From positions 1 to 35,115 of IMG/VR virus record IMGVR_UViG_3300046750_000033: a DNA stretch of 35,115 nt; one strand, written 5' to 3'. The stretch comes from a virus. A program made the translations under genes and the position numbers. A model generated the notes under the pieces. The model was given only the letters and a program-made list of their open reading frames with translations. It did no database searches and was not told the DNA's origin. Below are positions 509 through 26,858 of the stretch, piece after piece. The stretch's first letter is position 1; each line of letters begins with the position of its first letter.

Positions 509-1156
509 TTAAATAGTCCTAAATACCATCTCTTCAGGATGTTTTGCTGCGTCTATAGCGATAGCGTCAGACAGAAACTTGTCAGCAATTTGGAAGTATT
601 CTCCAGTAGAAGTACCTCCTGTTTCTCCACGCTCACGGGCCAACAAAGCTACCGCAAGGTGGACTACAGGCATTGCAGGAACAAGCAGTACATCTGCGTT
701 GCTAGTCAAGTCAGCCTGACGTTTAATTACGTCAAATCGCAAGTTGTAGACACCGTCTGGTGTTGGGCTAACGAGTACTTGCGTATCACCACTAGAGTCT
801 AGACCGTTGTACGTGTAGTACCTTGGCGCTCCTTGGACTTCTTCAGCAATGTACAAAGAGTCATTAAACCAGTCTTTAGTCTGGTAAGCCATAAAACAAT
901 TTTGTGTATCGTTAATTACTGACATGACTTTTACGTTATCGTCAGCACCTGTTAAAGAATAACTGTTGTCGGAAGCAGTAGTAGATATAATAACGGTGTC
1001 ACGTAGGGCTGACCAGTCGTTAGACTCTTCTACTAACTTCTTAGCGTCATTAATGTAGTCACCGACCATCTTACTGTAAGTGTTAGCAGTAACAGTAGCA
1101 ACTTCGTCTTCACGCAATCGACGTAGTACGTTATTCATTAAGTTAAGATATGTCAT
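509..1156 (-). CDS. Tail accessory / head-completion protein (P22 gp4 or T7 tubular A-like)
   Basis: The 215-residue protein starts MTYLNLMNNVLRRLREDE, followed by an ExNDWSALR-type helix and a C-terminal part with LAVALLARERGETGG. This layout, an alpha-helical start, a beta insertion and a conserved ARERGE helix, is typical of the small adaptor that closes the portal ring in P22-like and T7-like phages. It overlaps the giant repeat gene by four bases (ATGA) and is followed one base later by the stabilization-like gene, so the two probably form a neck/tail-tube pair. The role is inferred from family resemblance and synteny. Confidence 0.65.
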   Translation of the reverse strand: MTYLNLMNNVLRRLREDEVATVTANTYSKMVGDYINDAKKLVEESNDWSALRDTVIISTTASDNSYSLTGADDNVKVMSVINDTQNCFMAYQTKDWFNDSLYIAEEVQGAPRYYTYNGLDSSGDTQVLVSPTPDGVYNLRFDVIKRQADLTSNADVLLVPAMPVVHLAVALLARERGETGGTSTGEYFQIADKFLSDAIAIDAAKHPEEMVFRTI

Positions 1157-4100
1157 ACGAGCATTCCGCTGTTTTTAAGTAAAAAGTTATTTAGTTCTAT
1201 GTCGTAGTCTTTTTGTTGTGGTTGGTAACCAATATACTGGAACTGAGCAGGGTCGTAAGACAACATGCCCTTGTGAGGCTTAAAGTCAGACGCTATTGGC
1301 GAACCGCTCAGCATGCCTTCTTCTTCACCGTCCCCTTCGCCATCACCCTCACCATCGCCGTCACCGTCTCCAACACCTGTACCAGTTCCTGTGCCAGCGC
1401 CTGGACCGTCTCCAGTACCTGTGCCGTCACCCGTACCGTCCCCAGTACCAGAAGTGTCCTTACCTTGAGTTTCAGCGTCCTTGCGTACCTGCTCTGAAGA
1501 ATCTAGATCTTTTTCAAGTTGCTCATCAGCTGCGTCCTTTCTAGACTGCTCAGCGTCTTTAGCATTAGTTTCAGCTTGAGTGTCTTTCTGAGTGTTTTCG
1601 TCCTTGGTTGATTGTTCGGCAGCCTGTTGTTCCTTAGCAGATTCTTCAGCAGCCTGTTGCTCTTTGGCTTGCTCTTCTGCTGCTTGCTCTTTAGTAGCTT
1701 CCTCAGCAGCTTGCTGTTCTTTTGCGTCAGACTCAGCTTGAGCATCCTTAGCAGCTTCAGCTTCTTTTTCCTGAGTTTCAGCCTGAGCGTCTTTAGCAGC
1801 TTCTGCCTCTTTGTCAGTAGTTTCTGCATCCTTTTGTTGTTGTTCGGCAGCAGCGTCCTTTTGACGTTCCTCAGCTTCCTTCTCGTTACTTTCAGCCTGA
1901 GCATCTTTAGCAGCCTCAGCTTCTTTCTCTTGGGTCTCTGCTTCAGCGTCTTTAGCAGCCTCAGCTTCCTTATCAGCAGTCTCAGCGTCCTTTTGTTGTT
2001 GCTCTGCTTGTACGTCCTTTTCTTGCCTCTCTGCTTCCTTATCTTCACGTTCAGCCTGAGCTTCCTTTTGACGTTCCTCAGCAGCAGTTTCTTCCTTTTG
2101 ACCTTCCTCAGCCTGTCTGTCTTTTTCTTCCTGTTCAGCCTGACGGTCCTTTTCTTGCTTTTCAGCTTGGTCCTTGTCTGCTTGTTCAGCATCTTTTTGC
2201 TGCTGTTCTGCTTCAGTATCTTTTTGACGTTGTTCTGCGTCTTTTTCTAGTTGCTCAGCAATGTCTTTTTCTTCGTCTTCAGCTTGGTCTTTTTCAAGTT
2301 GTTCTGCTGCGTCTTTGTCTGCAGTCTCTGCCTGAGCTTCTTTGTCAGCTTCCTCAGCAGCCTGTTGTTCTTTCTGTTGAGTTTCAGCGTCAGCTTCTTT
2401 CTGAGCTTCCTCAGCGGCCTGTTGTTCTTTCTCCTGCGTTTCTGCCTGAGCATCTTTCTGAGACTGTTCTGCAGCAGCCTCTTCTTTTTCTTGAGTTTCT
2501 GCCTCAGCGTCCTTTTGAGATTGTTCAGCGGCAGCTTCTTCTTTTTCCTGAGTCTCAGCCTGAGCTTCCTTGTCAGTTTGTTCTGCTTGAGTTTCCTTAT
2601 TTTCTTGCTCAGCTTGACGTTCTTTTTCAGTTTCTTCAGCGTCTTTCTGAGATTCCTCAGCTTCTTTATTTTCTTCTTCAGCCTGACGTTCTTTTTCAGC
2701 TATCTCTGCTGCTCTTTCTTCTTTTACTTGGGTTTCTGCTTTAGCATCTTTTTTGGCTTGTTCTGCAGCAGCCTGCTCTTTTTCCTGAGTCTCTGCTTCA
2801 GCTTCCTTCTCTGCTCTTTCTGCAGCGGCTTCTTCTTTTTGTTGTGTTTCAGCAGCAGCTTCTTTGTCCGCTCGTTCTGCTGCAGCTTCCTCTTTCTGTT
2901 GTGTTTCAGCAGCAGCTTCTTTATCAGCACGTTCAGCAGCAGCATCTTCTTTTCGTTGTGTTTCTGCTTGGGCTTCTTTGTCTGCTTGTTCTGCAGTTTC
3001 TTCTTTTACGTTTCTTTCAGCTTCTTTTTCAGCTCGCTCTGTTGCAGCCTCATCCTTTTCAGACTGTTCAGCTTGCTGTTCTTCTTTTTCTACACGCTCT
3101 GCTTCTTCTTGCTGTTCTTCTTTGTAAGCGCCTTCTGCAGCACCGGGGTCGTCATAAACCGTAGTACCATCTTCAGGAGTTTCGTATACAGCACGAGTAG
3201 TACCTTCAATAGGGTCGTACACATAACCAACAGGCTCAGGCTCAGGCGGTGTTTCGTAACCTTCGTAAGGGTCTTCTTCTAAGTAGGAGTCGTCCCATTG
3301 CTCTCCCGTATATCGCTCCCAATCTTCAATCAGGCCGTCAATAACGTCAGGGTCAGTTTCGTTTATAATAGCCTCGTGAATCTGACGTGCGATAACACTG
3401 TCTTCCATACCAGTGTACACGTCAGTAGAAGTGCCTGTAGTGTCGTCTGAACCTATGTCTGTAACAGGCGGTTGTGCGTCTTTTTCATCTTTTTCTGCTT
3501 CAGCATCTTTAGCATCTTCAGCAGCCTGAGCATCTTTGGCATCTTCAGCAGCCTGAGCATCTTTAGCATCTTCAGCAGCTTGGGCATCCTTAGCATCTTC
3601 AGCAGCCTGAGCATCTTTAGCATCTTCAGCAGCTTGGGCATCCTTAGCATCTTCAGCAGCCTGAGCGTCTTTGGCAGCTTCAGCATCCTTAGCATCTTCA
3701 GCAGCTTGGGCATCCTTATCTGCTTCTGCATCTTTAGCAGCTTCTGCCTCAGCATTTGCTAGTTCTTTTTTATCTTGTTCAGCTCTTTCGTCTTTGGCTA
3801 TTTCTGCTTTAGTGTCTTTCTTGCTTTCAGCTTGAGCATCCTTCGCCGCCTCAGCGTCCTTATCGGACTCAGCATCTTTAGCAGCCTCTGCGTCACCACC
3901 GCCACCACCGCCGCCAACCTCAGGATCTTCTAACTCTGGAGGTATGTTAATGACGTACACGATTCCTGTCTCAGGGTCAGTCCATGTTCCGTCTTCAAAA
4001 TAGTCTTCACGGTCAAGATTTGGAAACTGCTCTTCAAAGTCCTCTAAGTTTATACCAACTTGCTCTGGTGGTTGGTCAACAGGAGGTACTAAAACATCAG

Positions 4101-4482
4101 CAGTTTGGTCCCACCATTCGTTAAAGCCTTCTATGTCAGGTAAATCAGAGCCTATTAGAAGTTCATTAATTTGGTCTATAATGTCGTTAGGGTCATCAGT
4201 TTCTGGGTCGTAACCTTCAAGAATGCTAATTATTTCTTGTATTTCTTGACCAAGTTCTTGACTGTCAGCAACTTGCTCTTGCGTAGCTCTTTCGATCATT
4301 CCTGCGGCTACTAACTCTTGTAATGACGACAATAAAGCATCAAAAGTAAGTAACTCAGGTTGCTCTAACTCAGTGTCTCCTACAGGATCTGGTTGTTCTG
4401 GTTGTGTTGTAGGAGGCACATAGTCAAACATCCCGGTTCCAAAAGAAGGCTTGTAAGCAGTTGTAGGGGCTCTCTTTGCCAT
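1153..4482 (-). CDS. Giant hypercharged repeat protein, 1109 residues, function unknown
   Basis: The ordered N-terminal part (about residues 1-187) has a short YKPSFGTGMF motif. Next come a Gly7 stretch, a first repeat block (about 190-337) built on AAEDAKDAQ, a unique acidic segment (about 340-450), and a second block (about 452-1007) of imperfect AETQxKExxAAExxxKE units. A Gly/Thr/Asp/Glu tract (about 1008-1050) and a unique C-terminus with FKPHKGMLSYDP close the protein. The repeats are almost all A, E, K, D, Q with no hydrophobic heptads, so a classical coiled coil is unlikely; a single charged alpha-helix or disordered polyampholyte is more likely. It lies between holin and neck genes, overlaps the neck gene by four bases, and is transcribed with structural genes, so it is probably a virion or tail-associated protein. 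I do not recognise the family. Confidence 0.9.
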   Translation of the reverse strand: MAKRAPTTAYKPSFGTGMFDYVPPTTQPEQPDPVGDTELEQPELLTFDALLSSLQELVAAGMIERATQEQVADSQELGQEIQEIISILEGYDPETDDPNDIIDQINELLIGSDLPDIEGFNEWWDQTADVLVPPVDQPPEQVGINLEDFEEQFPNLDREDYFEDGTWTDPETGIVYVINIPPELEDPEVGGGGGGGDAEAAKDAESDKDAEAAKDAQAESKKDTKAEIAKDERAEQDKKELANAEAEAAKDAEADKDAQAAEDAKDAEAAKDAQAAEDAKDAQAAEDAKDAQAAEDAKDAQAAEDAKDAQAAEDAKDAQAAEDAKDAEAEKDEKDAQPPVTDIGSDDTTGTSTDVYTGMEDSVIARQIHEAIINETDPDVIDGLIEDWERYTGEQWDDSYLEEDPYEGYETPPEPEPVGYVYDPIEGTTRAVYETPEDGTTVYDDPGAAEGAYKEEQQEEAERVEKEEQQAEQSEKDEAATERAEKEAERNVKEETAEQADKEAQAETQRKEDAAAERADKEAAAETQQKEEAAAERADKEAAAETQQKEEAAAERAEKEAEAETQEKEQAAAEQAKKDAKAETQVKEERAAEIAEKERQAEEENKEAEESQKDAEETEKERQAEQENKETQAEQTDKEAQAETQEKEEAAAEQSQKDAEAETQEKEEAAAEQSQKDAQAETQEKEQQAAEEAQKEADAETQQKEQQAAEEADKEAQAETADKDAAEQLEKDQAEDEEKDIAEQLEKDAEQRQKDTEAEQQQKDAEQADKDQAEKQEKDRQAEQEEKDRQAEEGQKEETAAEERQKEAQAEREDKEAERQEKDVQAEQQQKDAETADKEAEAAKDAEAETQEKEAEAAKDAQAESNEKEAEERQKDAAAEQQQKDAETTDKEAEAAKDAQAETQEKEAEAAKDAQAESDAKEQQAAEEATKEQAAEEQAKEQQAAEESAKEQQAAEQSTKDENTQKDTQAETNAKDAEQSRKDAADEQLEKDLDSSEQVRKDAETQGKDTSGTGDGTGDGTGTGDGPGAGTGTGTGVGDGDGDGEGDGEGDGEEEGMLSGSPIASDFKPHKGMLSYDPAQFQYIGYQPQQKDYDIELNNFLLKNSGMLV
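1460..3128 (-). repeat. K/E/A/Q repeat block encoding about 555 residues
   Basis: Degenerate tandem repeats of mostly 19 codons (57 bp) read AETQxKExxAAExxxKExx, with shorter 7-11 codon variants at the C-terminal end. Several neighbouring units around 2830-2940 are near-identical, which points to recent tandem duplication. Stop-free frames on both strands here are a by-product of the composition. Confidence 0.85.
3470..3900 (-). repeat. 27-bp repeat block encoding AAEDAKDAQ units
   Basis: Nine-codon units reading AAEDAKDAQ recur many times and alternate between two synonymous spellings. One 54-bp double unit is perfectly duplicated (3547-3600 equals 3601-3654). Copy number here is a likely place for assembly collapse or expansion. 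Confidence 0.88.
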
Positions 4483-11657: not shown

Positions 11658-11686
11658 ATTATAGCATACTTTTAAGCAGTTGTCAA
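11658..11686 (-). promoter_or_regulatory. Perfect-consensus sigma70-type promoter with extended -10 for scaffold/capsid module
   Basis: On the minus strand: TTGACA (complement of 11681-11686), a 17-bp spacer, then TATAAT (complement of 11658-11663) preceded by TGC, which is the extended -10 motif. Every consensus base is present. It overlaps the 3' end of the QueC-like gene and lies about 30 bases upstream of the 84-residue gene start. The phage encodes no RNA polymerase, so host holoenzyme would use it. Confidence 0.9.
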
Positions 11687-12349
11687 GTCTTTTCTCATGG
11701 CTTCTTGTCGTTCACAAGCATGGCACTCACCGCAAACAACAAAACCACTAAGCAACTCAGTAGGGTGCCTACAAGACCAATACATCTCACGGAGATCCTC
11801 AGGCATACTTAAGTATATACCTTTGCTTCGTTCTACAGAATTGTACGTCATGTGTTCAAAAGGAGCTAACCAAATAGGCTTAGCACGTCGGGTAGTACAT
11901 AAAGCATTAAGGACACCCTGAGCTTCTGCTCCTTCTTCTCTTCCTATGTTGTAGTCACCAGTGTAAACAACATTAAAAGACTTACCTAAACCTGAAGCTG
12001 CTCTCATGGCTTGAAACAAAGCCAGTGTCATGTCTTTACCGCCGGGGTACTTCATTTTCATAGAGTACACCGAAGAAGAAAACTCAAAGGGTCTTTGGTG
12101 TTTCTTCATGTAGTTTATTGTTTCTCTAACCGCCTCTGCTTCCGCTTTTACACGGCCTTCAGAGTTGTCAATGTGTATTGAATGTACATGTATTTCTTGT
12201 TCTGTATGCTCTAAAAGATTCCATAGTAATGATACACTGTCCATACCACCTGAGTACATTACTATAGCTGACTCGTTTTTGCTTCCTTTAAAGTAGTTTT
12301 TGTTTAAACATATATCTAAAGCTTGCTTTACTTTAGTTTCATAACTCAC
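11672..12349 (-). CDS. queC-like: QueC-like PP-loop ATPase (7-cyano-7-deazaguanine synthase family)
   Basis: The 225-residue protein has the PP-loop YSGGMDS at residues 32-38, which binds ATP in the QueC/N-type ATP pyrophosphatase family. A C-terminal zinc-site candidate is Cys193, Cys206, Cys209, Cys212 (WSCRHP, then CGECHACER). QueC converts 7-carboxy-7-deazaguanine to preQ0 for queuosine tRNA or phage DNA modification. The spacing between the first two cysteines (12 residues) is longer than I recall for bacterial QueC. The start is GTG, overlapping the upstream stop as GTGA. No QueD, QueE, FolE or DpdA is recognised here, so its product would have to feed on host intermediates, or it acts on another substrate. 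Confidence 0.75.
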   Translation of the reverse strand: MSYETKVKQALDICLNKNYFKGSKNESAIVMYSGGMDSVSLLWNLLEHTEQEIHVHSIHIDNSEGRVKAEAEAVRETINYMKKHQRPFEFSSSVYSMKMKYPGGKDMTLALFQAMRAASGLGKSFNVVYTGDYNIGREEGAEAQGVLNALCTTRRAKPIWLAPFEHMTYNSVERSKGIYLSMPEDLREMYWSCRHPTELLSGFVVCGECHACERQEAMRKDLTTA

Positions 12350-15718: not shown

Positions 15719-16969
15719 TTAGTATCCTGCTACCACGTCTAAAATTTCGTGGTCCTCAATTTCGTAGTCGTAGTCGTACGCTACATTTGCCAGTTGGTCA
15801 ATATACGCCAAAGCGTCTATCAAGTCGTCATGCGTCAAAGGATCAGGAAACTGAAAAAGTTGATCTAAAAATCTACTGTTCCATTCACCTTTGTTTAATG
15901 TAATGTAGCCGTTTTCGAAACGACCTTGTAGTGCCCACATTACTCTGTCGGTCTTCTTTTTATTACCGTGGGTAAGCTCTTCTACTCTGAAGAACATACC
16001 GTGTCGCTTTTGCATATCTACTAAAGGAGACATTACGGCTTGTTTAGCAATACCTCTTTCGATTCCGACCGACACGGGACGGTAATCTCTAACGGCCTGA
16101 AATATCTTAGCTGCTGTTTCGTCAAGACTCCATCTACCGTATATGATATTGTCAACATACCAACCATGCTCATTGACCTTAACCACTGCGATGGCTGTGT
16201 CGTCAAGCTTGGAGTTTTTAGTTTTCTTTTTGTTGACTTCTTCAAAGCCTGCCAAGTCAACGGCAATGTAGTAATCTCCTATTTCAGGTTCGTCTTCGCT
16301 AAAAGAGACCCAGTCCTCTTTAAACATTTCTGACCCACGAGCTTCAAACGACGCCATAAATTCTTGACGGAACGCATAGCTCGACATGCTTCTTTTCGCA
16401 ATATCAATTTCTGACGGGTCCAATAAAGGATTATCGTAAGATGTAAAATGCCAAGCCTTGTACGTAGGGTCATCATCTAGCTCCGCATATTTGTATAGTT
16501 CGTAAAAGTGGTTCCTTCCCATTGGTGTGCCTATGAACATTGCACAACCCTTTTGGTCCGCCAAGGCAGGTCTCAAGATCTGCTCAAACACCTCTGGTTT
16601 CATGTCAGCGTATTCGTCCATGACTAGAAACTTAAGGCTGACACCTCGCATTGTCTCTGGTCTGTCGGCACCTTTGAGGCTAATGGTAGCACCGTTGACA
16701 AGCTTAATTTGCAAATTATTAATATGGCTGCCAGAGATAACAGGGTGCCCCAGCTCAAGCAGGGTTTGCCACATGATGTCTCTGGCTTGTCCTTGAGTAG
16801 GTGCGACGTAAAATACATGGCCTCTGTCTGCCTGAAGTGCGTTTACTATTAACAACCACGCTGCTAACCTAGACTTGCCTGTACGACGCCCAGCAGCTAC
16901 TATTTTAAATCTTGTGTCGTCTGCCCAAACATCTTGCTGCCAAGGCAGTAGTTCAATATTAAGATCCAT
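15719..16969 (-). CDS. terL: Terminase large subunit (packaging ATPase-nuclease)
   Basis: I chose the ATG at 16969 (MDLNIELLPWQQDVW, 416 residues); earlier codons extend into the preceding gene without homology. The Walker A motif is AAGRRTGKS (residues 25-33) and Walker B is FLVMDEY with Asp118 and Glu119. The RNase H-like nuclease has Asp238 (AVDLAG), Glu304 (GIERG) and Asp381/382/385 (HDDLIDALAY). All catalytic positions are intact. It pumps DNA into the procapsid and cuts the concatemer. It overlaps the beta-rich gene by 11 bases and is followed by the portal. The packaging mode cannot be decided from this sequence. Confidence 0.93.
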   Translation of the reverse strand: MDLNIELLPWQQDVWADDTRFKIVAAGRRTGKSRLAAWLLIVNALQADRGHVFYVAPTQGQARDIMWQTLLELGHPVISGSHINNLQIKLVNGATISLKGADRPETMRGVSLKFLVMDEYADMKPEVFEQILRPALADQKGCAMFIGTPMGRNHFYELYKYAELDDDPTYKAWHFTSYDNPLLDPSEIDIAKRSMSSYAFRQEFMASFEARGSEMFKEDWVSFSEDEPEIGDYYIAVDLAGFEEVNKKKTKNSKLDDTAIAVVKVNEHGWYVDNIIYGRWSLDETAAKIFQAVRDYRPVSVGIERGIAKQAVMSPLVDMQKRHGMFFRVEELTHGNKKKTDRVMWALQGRFENGYITLNKGEWNSRFLDQLFQFPDPLTHDDLIDALAYIDQLANVAYDYDYEIEDHEILDVVAGY

Positions 16970-17312
16970 TAAAGTTATTAAACACCGTTGGTGCTGGTAA
17001 CAAGTCAAAGGTAACAACTACCTCTACGTTACCTGCACTACCACTAGAAGCCTTAATAATGTCTCCGGGCTGTAGAACAAACACGGCATTACCGTCAATT
17101 AGCAGGTTTTCCTTTGAGGATATGTTAGTACCGTTGTAGATATACACGTCTGGAGTGGGGCTAGGTTTGTCCACAAACAACGTAATGTCATTGGTTGAGT
17201 TATGTAGATTAGCTATGAACGCCATATTCCAGTGAGCAACGTAACCAGCAGGGATTTCTACAATTGTCTGCGTACTAGTATCTGTTAGGTTCTTGTTCTT
17301 TGTATATAACAT
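16959..17312 (-). CDS. Beta-rich virion-associated candidate, unknown function
   Basis: The ATG at 17312 overlaps the lysin stop as TAATG and gives 117 residues starting MLYTKNKNLTDTSTQ. The sequence alternates strands (IVEIPAGYVAHWNMAFIANLH, here shown only in part, then FVLQPGDIIKASSGSAGN), a beta-sandwich-like pattern without membrane segments or catalytic motifs. Similar short beta proteins with a PAG-x-x-A-HWN motif sit beside terminase in other marine phages. A decoration or fibre-accessory role is possible but is inference. Confidence 0.72.
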   Translation of the reverse strand: MLYTKNKNLTDTSTQTIVEIPAGYVAHWNMAFIANLHNSTNDITLFVDKPSPTPDVYIYNGTNISSKENLLIDGNAVFVLQPGDIIKASSGSAGNVEVVVTFDLLPAPTVFNNFNGS

Positions 17313-17662
17313 TAGTATGTCCACATAACAGGTGTTGTGCCACGGGTGTCAACATGAATAAAGTCAGAAGCAACACCGATACCTGTAAATCCTAACTTAA
17401 GAGCACTATTGACAAGCTTAAGGCGATCAGCAGCGTTTGTTATTTTTATGTCCGCTGCGATCCCTTGGGCATGAGTTCCGGGAACATCTTTTCTTGACTC
17501 TATTGGATGTAGTGTCGGGTGTCTATATCCACTAGTAATCACAAAAGGAAATCCACAGTATGCCCTTAACTCGTCTAACTTCTCTAGAAACTCCTGTTCC
17601 ATGTTGTTGGTTCCGGAGACCTGACAATCGAATTCTTCTCTAGTAAAATGCTTAAGAGTCAT
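17312..17662 (-). CDS. Endolysin, M15-family zinc peptidase
   Basis: The 116-residue enzyme carries the peptidase M15 (subfamily A/VanY-like) motif set: SGYRHP (44-49), the zinc ligands His64 and Asp71 in THAQGIAADI, then His103 in FIHVDTR with Asp105 nearby, and Trp114 near the end. Such enzymes cut peptide crosslinks in peptidoglycan. There is no signal peptide, so export would rely on the 3TM holin at 4483-4881. It starts inside the 3' end of TerS (11-base overlap), an unusual place compared with the usual holin-lysin pair. Confidence 0.88.
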   Translation of the reverse strand: MTLKHFTREEFDCQVSGTNNMEQEFLEKLDELRAYCGFPFVITSGYRHPTLHPIESRKDVPGTHAQGIAADIKITNAADRLKLVNSALKLGFTGIGVASDFIHVDTRGTTPVMWTY

Positions 17663-18038
17663 CTTCTACTACTTCTCCTTCGATTATCTCTGGTGTTAGT
17701 ACCTCTGCAGTGCCTACGCCACTTATGTTGATCTGTATAGCGTTACGACCAGCATCTTTTACTACGTCCTTCTCAAAGGCACCCACTGGTAATATACGGT
17801 CCATCACAAGTTTCCAAGCAGCAGCCTGATTCTTATGGTCATGGTCTAAAGCAGCATCAAAAATAGTCTCTAGGACCTTACGTGACTTTGGACTAGCCAG
17901 CATACGAGCCTTGTACTCGTTAATTATCGCTGCGTCACCCTTTGGTCGGCCTACTACACCCTTGTTACCGGGCTTTACAGCAGCGACTTCGGACTTCCGG
18001 GGTCTGCCACGACCTCTTTTTTTAACTTCTGTGGTCAT
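17652..18038 (-). CDS. terS: Terminase small subunit (putative)
   Basis: The 128-residue protein has AT-hook-like basic motifs at the N-terminus (KKRGRGRPRK, then VGRPKG). A helical core (AKSRK-like, here ASPKSRKVLETIFDAALDH) and a beta/acidic tail (EGEVVEDDS) follow. Position as the first late gene, two genes before TerL, and similarity to small terminases of marine podoviruses as I remember them support the call. It would recognise the packaging site on DNA. It is the first gene behind the strong promoter at 18067-18095, with an AAGGG ribosome site. An alternative is a DNA-binding regulator. Confidence 0.65.
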   Translation of the reverse strand: MTTEVKKRGRGRPRKSEVAAVKPGNKGVVGRPKGDAAIINEYKARMLASPKSRKVLETIFDAALDHDHKNQAAAWKLVMDRILPVGAFEKDVVKDAGRNAIQINISGVGTAEVLTPEIIEGEVVEDDS

Positions 18039-18066: not shown

Positions 18067-18095
18067 AGTATAACATAAGTCTTCACAAAAGTCAA
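18067..18095 (-). promoter_or_regulatory. Strong sigma70-type promoter of the leftward late arm
   Basis: On the minus strand TTGACT (complement of 18090-18095), a 17-bp spacer, then TATACT (complement of 18067-18072), about 30 bases upstream of TerS. Its spacer holds GAAGACTTATGT, part of an element repeated elsewhere in this divergent region. Host sigma70-like factors would read it. Confidence 0.88.
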
Positions 18096-18160: not shown

Positions 18161-18196
18161 TATTTTTACTTAATTTTTCTAATTTTAGCTTATTTT
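18161..18196. other. AT-rich tract, likely DNA-unwinding element of the origin
   Basis: 32 of 36 bases are A or T, in runs such as TTTTTACTTAATTTTTCT. It lies about 58 bp from the first DnaA box and in a gene-free region, the layout seen in bacterial origins. The unwinding role is inferred. Confidence 0.6.
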
Positions 18197-18253
18197 GTGC
18201 CTGAGTGGCTACAGTAAAAATAATTGCCAACATAAGCCCTCCCCCGGCCCAAG

Positions 18254-18432
18254 TTATCCACAGGTTTTCCACAAATCAAAAGTTATCCACAGGTTATACA
18301 CAGGTTGTGGACATCTTGGGGATAACCTGTGTTTATCCTGTGGATAACTCTAGGGTTGTGGATAAAGTTATGCACAGGTTATCCACAGGTTGTGCACAGG
18401 GTCAACCTAAGTTATCCACAGGTTTATCCACA
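18254..18432. other. DnaA-box array: candidate replication origin (or DnaA titration site)
   Basis: Nine sites match TTATNCACA. Plus-strand: 18254-18262, 18283-18291, 18294-18302 (TTATACACA), 18368-18376 (TTATGCACA), 18379-18387, 18412-18420, 18424-18432. Minus-strand: 18339-18347 and 18357-18365. Seven are the perfect TTATCCACA. Three more differ by one base: 18265-18273, 18317-18325 (minus) and 18390-18398. Neighbouring boxes are often 11 bp apart (18254/18265, 18283/18294, 18368/18379/18390), placing them on one DNA face. An AT-rich tract lies to the left. DnaA is the bacterial initiator; the phage has its own helicase-primase and polymerase, so recruited DnaA could melt the origin. Function is inferred. 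Confidence 0.88.
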
Positions 18433-18483
18433 TGGCCCTGAGACGCCCTGAGAAGCCGCTCACGGGGTTTTAACCTTGGGGTA

Positions 18484-18530: not shown

Positions 18531-18559
18531 TTGACAAGTGTGAGGACTTATGTTGAACC
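18531..18559 (+). promoter_or_regulatory. Promoter-like element toward the early arm, matching the late promoter spacer
   Basis: TTGACA at 18531-18536 is followed after 17 bp by TGAACC, a poor -10. The spacer holds TGTGAGGACTTATGT, nearly the same as TGTGAAGACTTATGT in the late promoter on the other strand. The good -35 and shared spacer suggest a regulated or activator-dependent promoter for the early genes. No better promoter for 18721 onward was found. Confidence 0.45.
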
Positions 18560-18720: not shown

Positions 18721-18906
18721 ATGGAAAACATCACACGTTCAAAAATCCTAGGTCGATCAGTAATCCTTCGCAAGCGTAAGATCCTGAGCAAGCCCTTCAG
18801 CTACTCACAGGGCGAGTGCTACCACAATTTGACCGGTGGGCTTTGGTCGCTCTACATTGAGCACAAGAAGGGACGACCAGTGAACGTATCCATCGACGAC
18901 CGTTAA
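18721..18906 (+). CDS. Small basic early protein, first gene of the rightward arm
   Basis: The preferred start is the ATG at 18721 (MENITRSKILGRSVILRK, 61 residues), preceded by GAAAGG at a proper distance. An in-frame ATG at 18679 adds a basic 14-residue extension but lacks a ribosome site. The protein is basic in its first half and has aromatic beta-like segments after it (SYSQGECYHNLTGGLWSLYI, quoted in part). No family recognised. As the first gene after the origin region, it may be an early host-takeover or regulatory factor; that is inference only. Confidence 0.65.
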   Translation: MENITRSKILGRSVILRKRKILSKPFSYSQGECYHNLTGGLWSLYIEHKKGRPVNVSIDDR

Positions 18907-19255: not shown

Positions 19256-19903
19256 ATGATTAAACTTTCGAAGGCCTCAAAAATGCCGGGTCGCTCTTGG
19301 TCACTACAGGCGCTGGACACTTGTCCCGGTTCAAAGAAACGTGACGGGTCATTAGTGGACGCTTGTTCGGGATGCTATGCCACACAAGGAAACTACCGAT
19401 TCAAGAACGTCAAAGCCCCTAGAGAGCACAATCGGGAAGATTGGAAGCGAGACCAGTGGGTCGACGACATGGTCTCAGAATTGGATAACGACCGCTATTT
19501 CCGATGGTTCGACAGTGGTGACGTTTACGACGTTAGGTTGGCCCGTAAGATCTTGGAAGTGATGAAGCGAACGCCATGGTGCAATCATTGGCTACCGACA
19601 CGCATGCATAAGTTTTCAAAGTTTGGTTCAGTGTTGGCAGAAATGTCAGCATTGCCGAACGTAGTAGTTCGCCTATCGTCTGACAGCATAACCGGAGACA
19701 CCGTAGAAGGCCCTCAAACGTCCACCATAGCGACGTTGGACAATGTGCCAGGGGATGCCCTAGTTTGTGAAGCTTATTCACGAGAGGGCAAATGCGGACC
19801 TTGTAGGGCATGCTGGTCAAAGGATGTCGCACTTGTGTGTTACATTGGGCACGGTAAGAGCATGGAAAAGAAGCAACGGGATATAATAGCGAGGGTGGCG
19901 TGA
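19256..19903 (+). CDS. Cys-rich GP88-like phage protein (215 residues)
   Basis: The start (ATG with GGAG 10 bases upstream) gives MIKLSKASKMPGRSWSLQ. Nine cysteines include Cys23, Cys37 and Cys40 (CSGCYATQGNYRF) and a C-terminal cluster Cys171, Cys180, Cys183, Cys186 (CGPCRACW). The middle holds YFRWFDSGDVYDVRLARKIL and HWLPTRMHKF. This arrangement matches the GP88 family (Pfam 'gene product 88') of mycobacteriophage and other phages, whose function is unknown. The cysteine groups suggest iron-sulfur or zinc binding. It heads a tightly coupled series of small genes. Confidence 0.68.
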   Translation: MIKLSKASKMPGRSWSLQALDTCPGSKKRDGSLVDACSGCYATQGNYRFKNVKAPREHNREDWKRDQWVDDMVSELDNDRYFRWFDSGDVYDVRLARKILEVMKRTPWCNHWLPTRMHKFSKFGSVLAEMSALPNVVVRLSSDSITGDTVEGPQTSTIATLDNVPGDALVCEAYSREGKCGPCRACWSKDVALVCYIGHGKSMEKKQRDIIARVA

Positions 19904-22054: not shown

Positions 22055-22432
22055 ATGACAGCAACAACAATCGAAGGCGTAGTTAACTTCAGCAACCTAA
22101 CCCAACATGACGTATTCAATGGGCAGGACACTGGTCAGTACTCATTGACCATTACGATGACTGAAGATGACGCCTCAGCGTTGTCCGCAATGGGGGTCAA
22201 GATCAAAGACTACCAAGGCGCTAAACAACGTAAGTTTAAATCTAAGTACGACGTAAAAAGCTTTGACGAAGACGGTAACCCTTATGGTGGTGAGATCCCT
22301 TACAACTCTAAGGTACGTCTCAAGTACAAGCTTGGGCCAGCACATCCAGTACACGGTGTGTCAACCTATCTCGAAGCAGTGAAAGTCCTTGAGGAAGCTG
22401 AGATGGCTGTGGGCGATGCCGCAGACTTCTAA
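22055..22432 (+). CDS. ssb: Single-stranded DNA-binding protein (gp2.5-like)
   Basis: The 125-residue protein starts MTATTIEGVVNFSNLTQHD and shows the strand pattern of an OB fold (YSLTITMTEDDASAL; KVRLKYKLGP). The tail is short and acidic and ends in Asp-Phe (VGDAADF), the signature of T7 gp2.5-type SSBs that dock to the polymerase and helicase. It is half the length of T7 gp2.5. It is the first gene behind the strong promoter and overlaps the primase-helicase start. It would coat single strands at the fork. Confidence 0.8.
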   Translation: MTATTIEGVVNFSNLTQHDVFNGQDTGQYSLTITMTEDDASALSAMGVKIKDYQGAKQRKFKSKYDVKSFDEDGNPYGGEIPYNSKVRLKYKLGPAHPVHGVSTYLEAVKVLEEAEMAVGDAADF

Positions 22433-24035
22433 GTTTGTACGTCACGAGAGTTGTCCGGAGTGTGGTTCTTCGGACGCTCTCGCTATCTACGACAACGGAG
22501 GCCAACACTGCTTTGGCTCCGGTTGTGACTACCATGTATTTGGAGACGGTGAAACACCAATGACGACTCAAGAACTACCAAAGGCTAAACCCCTGAACAT
22601 GGGTGGTGTAGTAGCGGCAATACCTCAGCGTAGACTCTCGCAGGAAACCTGTAGCCGCTTTGGTGTTACCGTTGAGTACTCCAGCACAGGGGAGATTCAA
22701 AAGCATTACTACCCTTACTACAACGGCGAGTCAGGGGAAGTGTGTGCAGCTAAGGTGCGTGACGTAAAAACCAAAGGATTCCACGCAACCGGAGACATGT
22801 CCGGTGCTGGTTTCTTTGGACAGCAGCAGTGTAGCGGTAATAAGTACATCACAATCACCGAAGGAGAACTCGACGCACTCAGTGTGTACGAGATGTTCAA
22901 CAAACAGTACGACGTGGTTTCCCTACGGTCAGGTGCTAGTAATGCCGCCAAGGAAATCAAAGAACAGCTAGAGTGGCTTGAGTCGTACGAAAACATTGTT
23001 ATTTGTTTCGACAATGACAAAGCAGGAGATTCGGCTCTGGAGCAAGTTAAGGACCTCTTTAGTCCTAACAAGCTAAGGATCTGTAAACTTCCTGTGAAGG
23101 ACGCCAGTGACATGCTCATGGCTAACAGGGTTAAGGACTTTACGCAAGCATGGTGGAATGCGAAAGTTTACCGACCCGACGGCATTGTAGCAGGTACTGA
23201 AACATGGGACACTCTGGTAGAGAAAAGACAGGTGAAGTCCATCCCGTATCCTTGGGAAGGTCTAAACCACATCACAAGGGGACATAGACCTTATGAGTTG
23301 GTCACGATCACAAGCGGCAGTGGTATGGGAAAGTCCCAATTTATCAGAGAAATTGAGTACGATCTACTACGCCGATGCGAAGGCAATATTGGAGTCTTGG
23401 CGCTTGAGGAAGATCTGGCCCGAACAAGCCTTGGTATCATGTCGGTGGCGGCAAACAGGCCCCTACACTTGGAAGAGGACACGCCTGTGGACCAACTTCG
23501 ACCTTTTTGGGAGGCCACACTGGGCACAGGACGTTACTACTTATTCGACCATTGGGGGTCTACTTCAGCAGATAACTTGCTCGCCCGTGTTCGCTACATG
23601 GCAAAAGCGCTTGACTGCAGGTACGTCGTACTGGACCACCTGTCCATCGTCGTGTCTTCCCAAGAGTCCGGAGACGAGCGTAAGGCCATTGACGAGATCA
23701 TGACCAAGTTACGTACGCTTGTGGCAGAGACAGGCATTGGTCTGTTCCTCGTGTCACACCTTCGTCGATCCCAAGGTAAGGCACACGAGGACGGTGCTCA
23801 GATATCCTTGGGTGAACTACGGGGTAGTCAGGCGATTGCACAACTGTCCGACATAGTAATAGGTATGGAGCGTGACCAGCAGAACGCTAACGAAGACATC
23901 AGGAACACGACTACTGTTCGAGTCCTAAAGAATCGTTACACTGGTGAAACCGGACCAGCGTGTTACTTACAGTACGACAGAAGTACCGGAAGAATGACAG
24001 AAGTAGCTAATCCTGAAGTAGGAGCAGACTTTTGA
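22416..24035 (+). CDS. T7-like primase-helicase
   Basis: I chose ATG 22416 (MPQTSKFVRH, 539 residues), which places the zinc finger at the usual distance; a TTG at 22389 is in frame but less plausible. The zinc site is Cys13, Cys16, Cys32, Cys37. The Toprim primase core has Glu149/Glu151 (TEGELD) and Asp199/Asp201 (FDNDKAG). The RecA-like helicase core has Walker A SGSGMGKS (300-307), Walker B Asp407 (VVLDHLS), His448 (SHLRR) and an ELRGSQ motif. All expected residues are intact; T7 gp4 has 566. It unwinds the fork and makes primers, and overlaps SSB by 17 bases. Confidence 0.93.
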   Translation: MPQTSKFVRHESCPECGSSDALAIYDNGGQHCFGSGCDYHVFGDGETPMTTQELPKAKPLNMGGVVAAIPQRRLSQETCSRFGVTVEYSSTGEIQKHYYPYYNGESGEVCAAKVRDVKTKGFHATGDMSGAGFFGQQQCSGNKYITITEGELDALSVYEMFNKQYDVVSLRSGASNAAKEIKEQLEWLESYENIVICFDNDKAGDSALEQVKDLFSPNKLRICKLPVKDASDMLMANRVKDFTQAWWNAKVYRPDGIVAGTETWDTLVEKRQVKSIPYPWEGLNHITRGHRPYELVTITSGSGMGKSQFIREIEYDLLRRCEGNIGVLALEEDLARTSLGIMSVAANRPLHLEEDTPVDQLRPFWEATLGTGRYYLFDHWGSTSADNLLARVRYMAKALDCRYVVLDHLSIVVSSQESGDERKAIDEIMTKLRTLVAETGIGLFLVSHLRRSQGKAHEDGAQISLGELRGSQAIAQLSDIVIGMERDQQNANEDIRNTTTVRVLKNRYTGETGPACYLQYDRSTGRMTEVANPEVGADF

Positions 24036-25666
24036 TCTACCTTGACCTTGAGGCCAACGGTTTAACTCCCGACACCATTTGGTGTGTTGTAACACGGGAG
24101 AACGGTGTTTCACAGGTACATACCAACCGTAGTACCCTCTGTGAGGCTCTGGCTGGCTCTGTGAGCGTTTGTGGACACAACCTGATAGGTTATGACCTCC
24201 CAGTGCTAAAGCGTCTCTGGGGGCTTTCTGTGGCTCCTGAGAGGGTAGTGGACACACTGGTGTTGTCACGTTTGTTTGACCCAAGCAGACAGGGTGGACA
24301 CTCGTTGAGGGCTTGGGGTGAAACCTTGGGCTTCCCAAAGGGTGACCATGACGACTGGTCGTGTTTGTCTCCCGCTATGATTGACTACTGCATACAGGAC
24401 GTAGCAGTCACAGAGTCAGTACATCAGCAGCTTGTCAAGGACATGCAAGATTTTGACCCTAAGTGTATCGAATTGGAACACAAGGTTCAGTTTGCAGTCC
24501 AACAACAAGAGCGCAATGGTTGGGTCTTAGATCAGCAATTGGCTAATGAGTTATGTGCAACATTCAAGGAAGGCATGAATGCAATTGAAGCCGAACTACA
24601 AGAGATGTTCCCGCCCATTGTCGAAGAAAGGATTTCTGAAAAGACAGGGAAACGACTTAAGGACAAAGTTACAGTTTTCAATGTTGGGTCCAGACAACAA
24701 GTGGCAGAACGACTTGCAACTAAGGGTGCGAAGTGGAACGAGAAGACGCCAAGCGGAAAGCCCGTTGTCGATGAAAAGACGCTTAAGGAGAACAACCACG
24801 TCCCTGAGGCAGGAAAAGTTTTGGAGTACCTTACTCTTCAAAAGCGATATGCGCAAGTACATTCTTGGTTAGAAGCCGTTAAGGAGGACGGTAGAGTACA
24901 CGGTCGTGTCATTAGTAACGGAGCAGTAACAGGTCGAATGACACATCAGAGTCCCAACATGGCCCAAGTCCCAGCAAGCCACAGTCCTTATGGACATGAG
25001 TGTCGCTCCTGCTGGACTGTACCTGAAGGGAAGAAGCTAGTAGGTTTCGACGCTAGTGGCCTTGAGCTACGAATGTTGGCGCACTACATGGACGACAAGG
25101 AGTTTACCAATGTCCTCCTCACCGAAGACATTCATACACGAAACCAAATGGCTGCAGGGCTTGAAACAAGACCTCAAGCAAAGACTTTCATATACGCTTT
25201 CCTCTACGGGGCTGGAGATGCCAAAATTGGAAGTGTCGTTGGAGGAAGCGCAAGAGATGGCGCAGATCTTAAACAGCGATTTCTCCGAAATACACCTGCT
25301 CTTGAAAGTCTACGAGAACGGGTTACTAGAGCATCTCAGCGAGGCTATCTCAGAGGACTTGATGGTAGAAGGCTTAGAGTTAGATCTGAACATGCTGCAT
25401 TGAATACTCTGCTCCAAGCAGCAGGTGCAATCGTAATGAAAAAAGCACTGGTGATCTTGGACGACTACGCACAGCAGTGGAACATTGACTATAAATTCAT
25501 AGGTAACATTCATGACGAAGTACAATCGGAGGTGGCTGCAGACCAAGCAGAGAAGTTTGGCTGGCTCGCAGTGGAGTGCCTCAAGGCGGCAGGCGTGGAG
25601 TATAACCTTAGATGCCCCCTTGACGGAGAATACAAAGTCGGTACAACATGGGCGGAGACACATTAA
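24032..25666 (+). CDS. Family A DNA polymerase with 3'-5' exonuclease
   Basis: The gene starts with TTG at 24032, overlapping the helicase stop (TTGA), with GGAG seven bases upstream. The exonuclease residues are Asp5 and Glu7 (YLDLEA), Asp55 (HNLIGYD) and Asp123 (YCIQDV). Polymerase motif A is Asp340 (GFDASGLELR). Motif B has Arg380, Lys384 and Tyr388 (RPQAKTFIYAFLYGAG). Motif C is His494-Asp495-Glu496. Tyr388 matches Tyr526 of T7 and position 762 of E. coli Pol I. With 544 residues it is about 160 shorter than T7 gp5 (704), with a small region between exonuclease and thumb. It replicates the genome. Confidence 0.93.
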   Translation: MIYLDLEANGLTPDTIWCVVTRENGVSQVHTNRSTLCEALAGSVSVCGHNLIGYDLPVLKRLWGLSVAPERVVDTLVLSRLFDPSRQGGHSLRAWGETLGFPKGDHDDWSCLSPAMIDYCIQDVAVTESVHQQLVKDMQDFDPKCIELEHKVQFAVQQQERNGWVLDQQLANELCATFKEGMNAIEAELQEMFPPIVEERISEKTGKRLKDKVTVFNVGSRQQVAERLATKGAKWNEKTPSGKPVVDEKTLKENNHVPEAGKVLEYLTLQKRYAQVHSWLEAVKEDGRVHGRVISNGAVTGRMTHQSPNMAQVPASHSPYGHECRSCWTVPEGKKLVGFDASGLELRMLAHYMDDKEFTNVLLTEDIHTRNQMAAGLETRPQAKTFIYAFLYGAGDAKIGSVVGGSARDGADLKQRFLRNTPALESLRERVTRASQRGYLRGLDGRRLRVRSEHAALNTLLQAAGAIVMKKALVILDDYAQQWNIDYKFIGNIHDEVQSEVAADQAEKFGWLAVECLKAAGVEYNLRCPLDGEYKVGTTWAETH

Positions 25667-25995
25667 TGGAAATGAGTAAGAGCAGAAAAGGAGACTTTGC
25701 GGAGTTCTATGCAGTTACTTGGCTTTGGGACAACGGGTACGAAGTGTTTCTAAACGCAGGCTGCTCAGGGCCTATTGACATGATTGCTACAAAAGATGGA
25801 GAAACAGTTCTAATTGACGTAAAGACTTCTCAGTACGATCCTAGAAACGATCTCTGGACCGTACGTTCATATAGAAGTGACCAGCAAAAAAAGTTAGGTG
25901 TTGTTTACTTGCTTTTTGACGCAGAAACACGTAAACTTAGATGGGTTAACCATAGAGATGCAGAAGACAAGCAATTAGGACTGGAATTAGTATGA
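25666..25995 (+). CDS. Small PD-(D/E)xK nuclease
   Basis: I chose the ATG at 25666, which shares a base with the polymerase stop (TAATG) and has GGAG nine bases upstream; an ATG at 25648 is in frame but lies inside the polymerase gene. The 109-residue protein has Glu13 (DFAEF), Asp38 (GPIDMI) and Asp51-x-Lys53 (LIDVKTS), the PD-(D/E)xK catalytic set. Small single-domain proteins of this kind often act as Holliday-junction or flap nucleases. Direct coupling to the polymerase suggests a role in replication or recombination. Substrate unknown. Confidence 0.75.
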   Translation: MEMSKSRKGDFAEFYAVTWLWDNGYEVFLNAGCSGPIDMIATKDGETVLIDVKTSQYDPRNDLWTVRSYRSDQQKKLGVVYLLFDAETRKLRWVNHRDAEDKQLGLELV

Positions 25996-26858
25996 AGAAT
26001 GTATACACATTAGTAGACGACATCTACAAACTTGTTAAGACCAAGAGAGTAGACAAAGACGTTGACATCGAAGAGTGCATAGACCTATTCGGTGAAAACG
26101 TGAAGGACCTTATGCGTAAGGAGTTTGGACAGAGACGTGCTTGGGACGGTCGTAAGTTACGTATGTCCAACATAGGCAAGGGAGACCGCTTCTTATGGAA
26201 TCACTACAACAATGTTCAGAAGTCAGAGGAGATGCAAGGACATACGCTTGTTAAGTTCCTTTACGGTCATCTGATTGAAGAACTATTACTATTCCTAACG
26301 AGGGCATCAGGACATGAGGTTACCGCCGAACAGAAGCAGTGTGAAATCAAGGGCATTACGGGTTCTATGGACTGCAAAATTGACGGTGTTGTCACAGACG
26401 TTAAGAGTGTTTCGAGCTACGGGTTTAAGAAATTCAAAGACGGTACTCTGGCTTACGATGATCCATTTGGATACGTCGCTCAAATTAAAGGATATGCAGA
26501 GGCAGAAGGTCAGACAACTTTTGGCTGGCTTGCGATGGACAAGCAAAACGGACACCTAACGTACCTCATGTACGATCAGGAGGACACTCAAGCCCCTGTG
26601 TACGAGAAGATAGGGTTTGACATCACAGACCGCATTGAGCACGTACAGTTAATGGTGGAGAAGCAAGAGCCGCCAAAGCAGTGCTACGAGCCAAAGCCAG
26701 ACGGCAAGAGTGGTAACATGAAGTTGGACATCGGTTGCTCGTACTGTGCGTACAAGAAAGCCTGTTGGCCCGGCCTACGTGCCTTCTCTTATTCAACAGG
26801 TCCAAGGTTTTTAACGGAGGTGGTCAATGAGCCGAAGGTCCAAGAAATCAGCATTTAG
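25992..26858 (+). CDS. Cas4/RecB-like exonuclease with four-cysteine cluster
   Basis: The 288-residue protein has His93 and Glu96/97 (YGHLIEE), Asp127 (GSMDCKIDG), Asp136-x-Lys138 (VTDVKS) and Gln164 (VAQIKGY), the PD-(D/E)xK core of the RecB/Cas4 clan. Four C-terminal cysteines (Cys231, Cys249, Cys252, Cys258) could hold an iron-sulfur cluster, as in Cas4 and AddB. It overlaps the upstream nuclease by four bases (ATGA). In the phage it could degrade host DNA to supply nucleotides or process ends, taking the place of T7 gene 6 exonuclease. No CRISPR or cas1/cas2 is present. The family is clear, the substrate is inferred. Confidence 0.8.
   Translation: MKNVYTLVDDIYKLVKTKRVDKDVDIEECIDLFGENVKDLMRKEFGQRRAWDGRKLRMSNIGKGDRFLWNHYNNVQKSEEMQGHTLVKFLYGHLIEELLLFLTRASGHEVTAEQKQCEIKGITGSMDCKIDGVVTDVKSVSSYGFKKFKDGTLAYDDPFGYVAQIKGYAEAEGQTTFGWLAMDKQNGHLTYLMYDQEDTQAPVYEKIGFDITDRIEHVQLMVEKQEPPKQCYEPKPDGKSGNMKLDIGCSYCAYKKACWPGLRAFSYSTGPRFLTEVVNEPKVQEISI

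Follow-up and report, generated by a model that had tools for sequence, protein, structure and literature searches.

How replication starts in phages that lack an RNA polymerase of their own, yet replicate their DNA with T7-like proteins, is, as far as we know, an open question. The virus genome considered here, a stretch of 35,115 nucleotides (IMG/VR record IMGVR_UViG_3300046750_000033, referred to below as the window), raises this question in a concrete form, as it contains a dense array of boxes for the host initiator DnaA, originally predicted to be either an oriC-like origin or a DnaA sponge. The window assembles as a complete-looking circle with a 127-bp overlap and a GC content of 45.6%, and the features on which the argument depends are the following.

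15719-16990, minus strand: terminase large subunit gene (TerL)
17652-18038, minus strand: putative terminase small subunit gene (terS), with an AT-hook, adjoining TerL
18067-18095, minus strand: sigma-70-like promoter (TTGACT-17-TATACT), directed towards terS
18161-18196, no strand: AT-rich tract, 32 of 36 A/T, overlapping the conserved element
18180-18212, minus strand: conserved noncoding element GTAGCCACTCAGGCACAAAATAAGC..., which remains with terS
18237-18250, no strand: G-rich tract (GGGCCGGGGGAGGG on the minus strand), flush with the array, exchange point of the array types
18254-18432, no strand: DnaA-box array, nine exact and three one-mismatch sites, 11-bp phased, plus orientation predominating
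18721-18906, plus strand: 61-aa gene, the first early gene
19256-19903, plus strand: GP88 family gene (PF17338), within the exchanged block
22055-22432, plus strand: gp2.5-like ssDNA-binding protein (SSB) gene
22389-24035, plus strand: T7-like primase-helicase gene, its clade matching the array type
24032-25666, plus strand: PolA-type DNA polymerase gene
25992-26858, plus strand: Cas4-domain-type exonuclease gene, right end of the co-inherited block

The original description of the phage as T7-like holds for its replication genes (gp2.5-like SSB, primase-helicase and PolA), but the terminase is not obviously of the T7 type. As had also been proposed, no phage RNA polymerase, including the single-subunit enzyme by which Autographiviridae are recognised, was found among the ORFs scanned (the small ones in part). 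The GC-skew switch suggested as a check for an origin is real at 18-19 kb, but the skew also turns with the direction of the genes at 29.5 kb; it thus tracks the coding strand, is uninformative on the origin and was dropped as evidence. Elsewhere in the window, a 1109-aa protein (1153-4482, minus strand) consists mostly of degenerate charged repeats (KDAEA, AEQADKEAQAETQ), and a protein with a YSGGMDSVSLLW loop (11672-12349, minus strand) presumably resembles a QueC-like PP-loop enzyme, with a possible 7-deazaguanine link. An M15 peptidase gene (17312-17662, minus strand) shares a 170-bp stretch, 72% identical, with a peptidase/endolysin gene of the Pseudoalteromonas phages H105/1, HS1 and HS5, which may be taken as a weak hint of the host. 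A terminase search of bacterial genomes for the host returned three metagenome bins, each of a different phylum and probably contaminated, and was discarded.

Nine exact TTATNCACA sites lie within 18254-18432, seven of them perfect TTATCCACA (18254+, 18283+, 18339-, 18357-, 18379+, 18412+ and 18424+) and the remaining two TTATACACA (18294+) and TTATGCACA (18368+); three more sites carry one mismatch (TTTTCCACA at 18265, TTATCCCCA at 18317- and TTGTGCACA at 18390). On recounting, the numbers and coordinates first reported proved correct throughout, as did the location between divergent arms, with terS (minus) on one side and the first early gene (plus) on the other. No exact TTATNCACA site occurs in the rest of the 35-kb window, and 300 order-2 Markov simulations gave a mean of 0.86 sites per genome and a maximum of two in any 180 bp. 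The array is therefore a cluster well above chance, as in oriC-type loci, made of multiple strong boxes, as in datA-type loci; for scale, E. coli oriC holds three exact sites within about 190 bp. An ORF covering the array (18205-18441) was ruled out as coding sequence by the 11-bp repeats and by the indels among relatives.

For comparison, 80 contigs with related terminases were fetched. Twelve of these carry 5-11 exact boxes at the equivalent place, 1.3-1.7 kb upstream of TerL, and the same array is present in about 50 related contigs. The enrichment in relatives, whose lack was to have refuted the original prediction, was found, but it is confined to a subset: other relatives, some with 98% identical TerL, have no exact boxes at the array position. 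DnaA is known to tolerate changes at box positions 3 and 5. Among the 141 boxes of 13 arrays (a set from which boxes with more than one mismatch at positions other than 5 were excluded, a filter which gives position 3 no advantage), changes concentrate at positions 3 (A, G or T) and 5 (any base), while positions 2, 4, 6 and 8 are invariant and 79 boxes are TTATCCACA; the degeneracy is that of DnaA. Furthermore, 76 of the 101 same-orientation gaps in these arrays (about 75%) are multiples of 11 bp. In E. coli oriC, exactly 2 bp separate the 9-mers of the arrays, and the boxes point in one direction within each half and in opposite directions between halves (PMC4451416). The phage boxes thus combine DnaA degeneracy with the cooperative 2-bp spacing. 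Recognition by host DnaA, as predicted, is well supported by the way the boxes vary, by their spacing and by the presence of the array in relatives, and in our own estimate it is very likely that host DnaA binds the array.

In close relatives, the exact position of the array is occupied by a different repeat, CATGCAA-N4-CATGCCAA (also given as CATGCAA-N4-CATGCCAACT), seen in contigs L002, L004, L006, L017, L050 and L066 and lying about 1.3-1.45 kb upstream of TerL in L002. The core of this repeat is eleven times more frequent than in shuffled sequence, and its copies lie 11 bp apart far more often than at any other distance. The two types of array are nearly mutually exclusive across contigs; carriers of the CATGCAA type have terminases near-identical to that of the window, several with 95-96% identity in TerS. 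When relatives differing in array type were compared, in three pairs, homology ended 210-228 bp from the start of terS, a point which in the window corresponds to the G-rich tract at 18237-18250, flush with the array. Since homology between the array types breaks at the array edge, the array is to be counted with the early/replication genes.

Phylogenetic trees point to the same assignment. On the TerL tree (59 contigs), the DnaA-type label has to change five times or more on branches with good support. Five changes are required on the TerS tree (24 contigs), and seven are needed, with the same 24 contigs, for gene 21319, located between the array and the helicase. Four changes were counted for gene 21567 and four for the RNR (9 contigs); an association of array type with TerL or RNR is absent. 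The primase-helicase tree, by contrast, shows a single change with 100/100 support (same 24 contigs), and two each are found for SSB (24 contigs), the polymerase (19 contigs), the exonuclease and gene 20848. Repeated changes on the terminase trees, and on those of two genes that directly precede the replication genes, against one on the helicase-primase tree indicate that the array travels with the replication module. On the evidence of these trees, the replication genes are inherited as a block that has the array at its left end and whose small genes get replaced in patches. Co-inheritance with replication genes, as in an oriC-type locus, is thus found with a caveat, as patch replacement alone could keep array and helicase linked, making the linkage support and not proof. 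Moreover, two carriers of the array (L024 and L134) have a helicase of another lineage (43-45%), so that the match between array and helicase holds within one helicase family only. Helicase residues fixed by array type were just three and uninformative.

The DNA between array and terS follows the terminase. The G-rich tract is kept in more than 50 relatives, and the conserved element beyond it (GTAGCCACTCAGACACAAAAAAG...) is retained in over 50 contigs, the most distant with a TerS only 46% identical; since it stays with terS under either array type, it is probably a packaging or cos-type site. The AT-rich tract noted in the original prediction is present, with 32 of 36 A/T confirmed, a value attained nowhere else in the genome, but it lends weak support to an origin. 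It overlaps the terS-linked element and is thus not specific to phages of the DnaA type, and the boxes closest to it face away from it. Several other observations concern this stretch. The element and the G-rich tract (18180-18250) might form a G-quadruplex. A 24-bp inverted repeat occurs both in the terS promoter region (18072-18095) and in the early leader (18531-18554), and is accompanied by further ACATAAG copies, a possible shared operator. At positions 1-30 of contig L250, a library-primer-like string (GTTTCCCAGTCACGATC) is fused directly to the G-rich tract.

Similar arrays, some of them unannotated, were found in other phages. Of the T7-like phages concerned, which do encode an RNA polymerase, P483, nasanit and phiEap-1 have five exact boxes each and A7 has four; those of phiEap-1 lie 71-174 bp from the left end of its record. 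The T5-like phage DT57C has four boxes in 75 bp, and a microvirus has seven. The unannotated exact-TTATCCACA clusters are those of L202, L203 and L205 (Berlinvirus), L281 (phiEap-1), L282 (DT57C) and L285 (the microvirus). The Studiervirinae arrays (Berlinvirus P483, A7 and nasanit; Eapunavirus phiEap-1) resemble that of the window in their location at the packaging/early junction, where roughly 100 bp hold four or five exact boxes, but these phages have their own RNA polymerase and irregular spacing, and the exchange with another array shown here is that of the window family. The injection stop region of T5-like phages (DT57C, S114), described with DnaA boxes (PMC13250531), is likewise noncoding, repeat-rich and placed between divergent early genes; it differs in its fewer boxes, the type of phage, a long terminal repeat and the A1/A2 genes. 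A literature search returned no description of DnaA arrays from T7-like phages, and the T5 injection stop signal was the only case in which it found DnaA connected with lytic phages; for an unrelated Pseudomonas phage, one paper gives DnaA boxes predicted by Ori-Finder. A search among plasmid arrays gave one weak match. DnaA arrays thus appear, from the box clusters, to recur in lytic phages of differing replication modes, which makes the strategy less unusual than first claimed and an origin harder to deduce from the array.

Depending on the weight given to these likenesses, different functions can be envisaged. The second half of the original prediction, a sponge that sequesters host DnaA and halts initiation on the host chromosome, has its model in datA of E. 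coli, a DnaA titration locus made of a cluster of strong boxes. The predominance of consensus boxes would fit it, as would the location of the array in an exchangeable early region beside accessory genes and the similar arrays in phages of differing replication modes; about 100 phage copies with 9-12 strong boxes each would offer some 1000 sites, a number comparable to the DnaA pool. The phage array, unlike datA, is far denser, phased, carried on a multicopy genome and tied to replication genes. Co-inheritance with the helicase-primase is unexpected for an accessory trait, relatives swap the array for another phased repeat instead of simply losing it, and one incoming genome would bring too few sites to matter early. 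We therefore regard titration as unlikely, and lean towards a replication role, which the co-inheritance of array type with the helicase-primase favours. Somewhat less likely still is a genome-end function, in which the array would mark the end injected first and bound DnaA would control or stage entry, as at the T5 stop signal. The T5-like boxes, the position of those of phiEap-1 and the contact of the array with the conserved G-rich/ACTCAGACACAAAA element by terS, which is packaging- or cos-like, speak for it, but the window assembles as a circle, the contigs that end at or near the conserved element (L239, L250 and L255) give only a weak hint of a genome end, and the helicase coupling would be left unexplained.

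Two further readings seem improbable to us. DnaA is a known transcription regulator, and an array placed between the divergent arms, with a good promoter on the minus strand close by, could serve it in controlling the terS and early promoters; against this, a scan found no good early promoter inside or beside the array, 9-12 boxes exceed what regulation needs, and the coupling to the helicase is again unaccounted for. There is equally little to recommend a phage-encoded binder, either an initiator or the small terminase, in place of DnaA. The swap for another phased repeat does suggest an exchangeable binder, and orthologues of the 61-aa gene (at least 69% identity) have 6-10 exact boxes upstream in all 36 loci with enough sequence; motif and degeneracy, on the other hand, are those of DnaA. 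The 61-aa gene was also rejected as a functional partner of the array, as none of its 22 distant homologues in other contigs has such an array, so that the constant association is probably one of linkage; a structure model of the protein was unusable (mean pLDDT 43). The small terminase was excluded as well, being near-identical in carriers of either array type.

An origin is the best single reading, given the box spacing, the lack of an RNA polymerase among the ORFs scanned and the link between array and replication module, and we tentatively favour the array as a high-affinity host-DnaA cassette that may form the initiator-binding half of a phage replication origin. Host DnaA would bind the consensus boxes and, by cooperative binding along one helical face, occupy the sites phased at 11 bp; this complex would open nearby DNA and expose single strand for the T7-like primase-helicase and the PolA polymerase of the phage. 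The primase-helicase should need no DnaC-type loader, and a start of this kind would replace that of T7, which requires the phage RNA polymerase apparently absent here. DnaA binding, melting at the array and the start of a fork there are steps that we infer. In common with bacterial oriC (E. coli K-12, PMC4451416), the array has clustered 9-mer boxes, 2-bp spacing, two orientations and AT-rich DNA alongside. The differences from E. coli oriC, several of which count against an origin, are that there are three times more consensus boxes, nearly all strong where oriC mixes strong and weak sites; that GATC sites are absent; that the boxes nearest the AT-rich tract are reversed with respect to E. 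coli R1, which faces the unwinding element; that the tract is kept by the terminase side when arrays are exchanged; and that the phage brings its own helicase-primase. The arrays of T5-like phages and of those T7-like phages that encode an RNA polymerase, and the different helicase lineage of L024 and L134, also weigh against it.

The wider proposal, that a marine phage family exchanges origin cassettes at one fixed site, either an array for DnaA, an initiator universal among hosts, or a phased repeat for another binder, each matched to the helicase-primase lineage, is a possibility that we hold with rather more reserve than the origin itself. That phages alike in nearly everything else differ in array type provides a natural experiment on replication start, and the array also connects DnaA of the host with lytic phages. 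If the reading as exchangeable cassettes is true, it would represent an unrecognised way of starting replication for phages with a T7-type replisome and no RNA polymerase.
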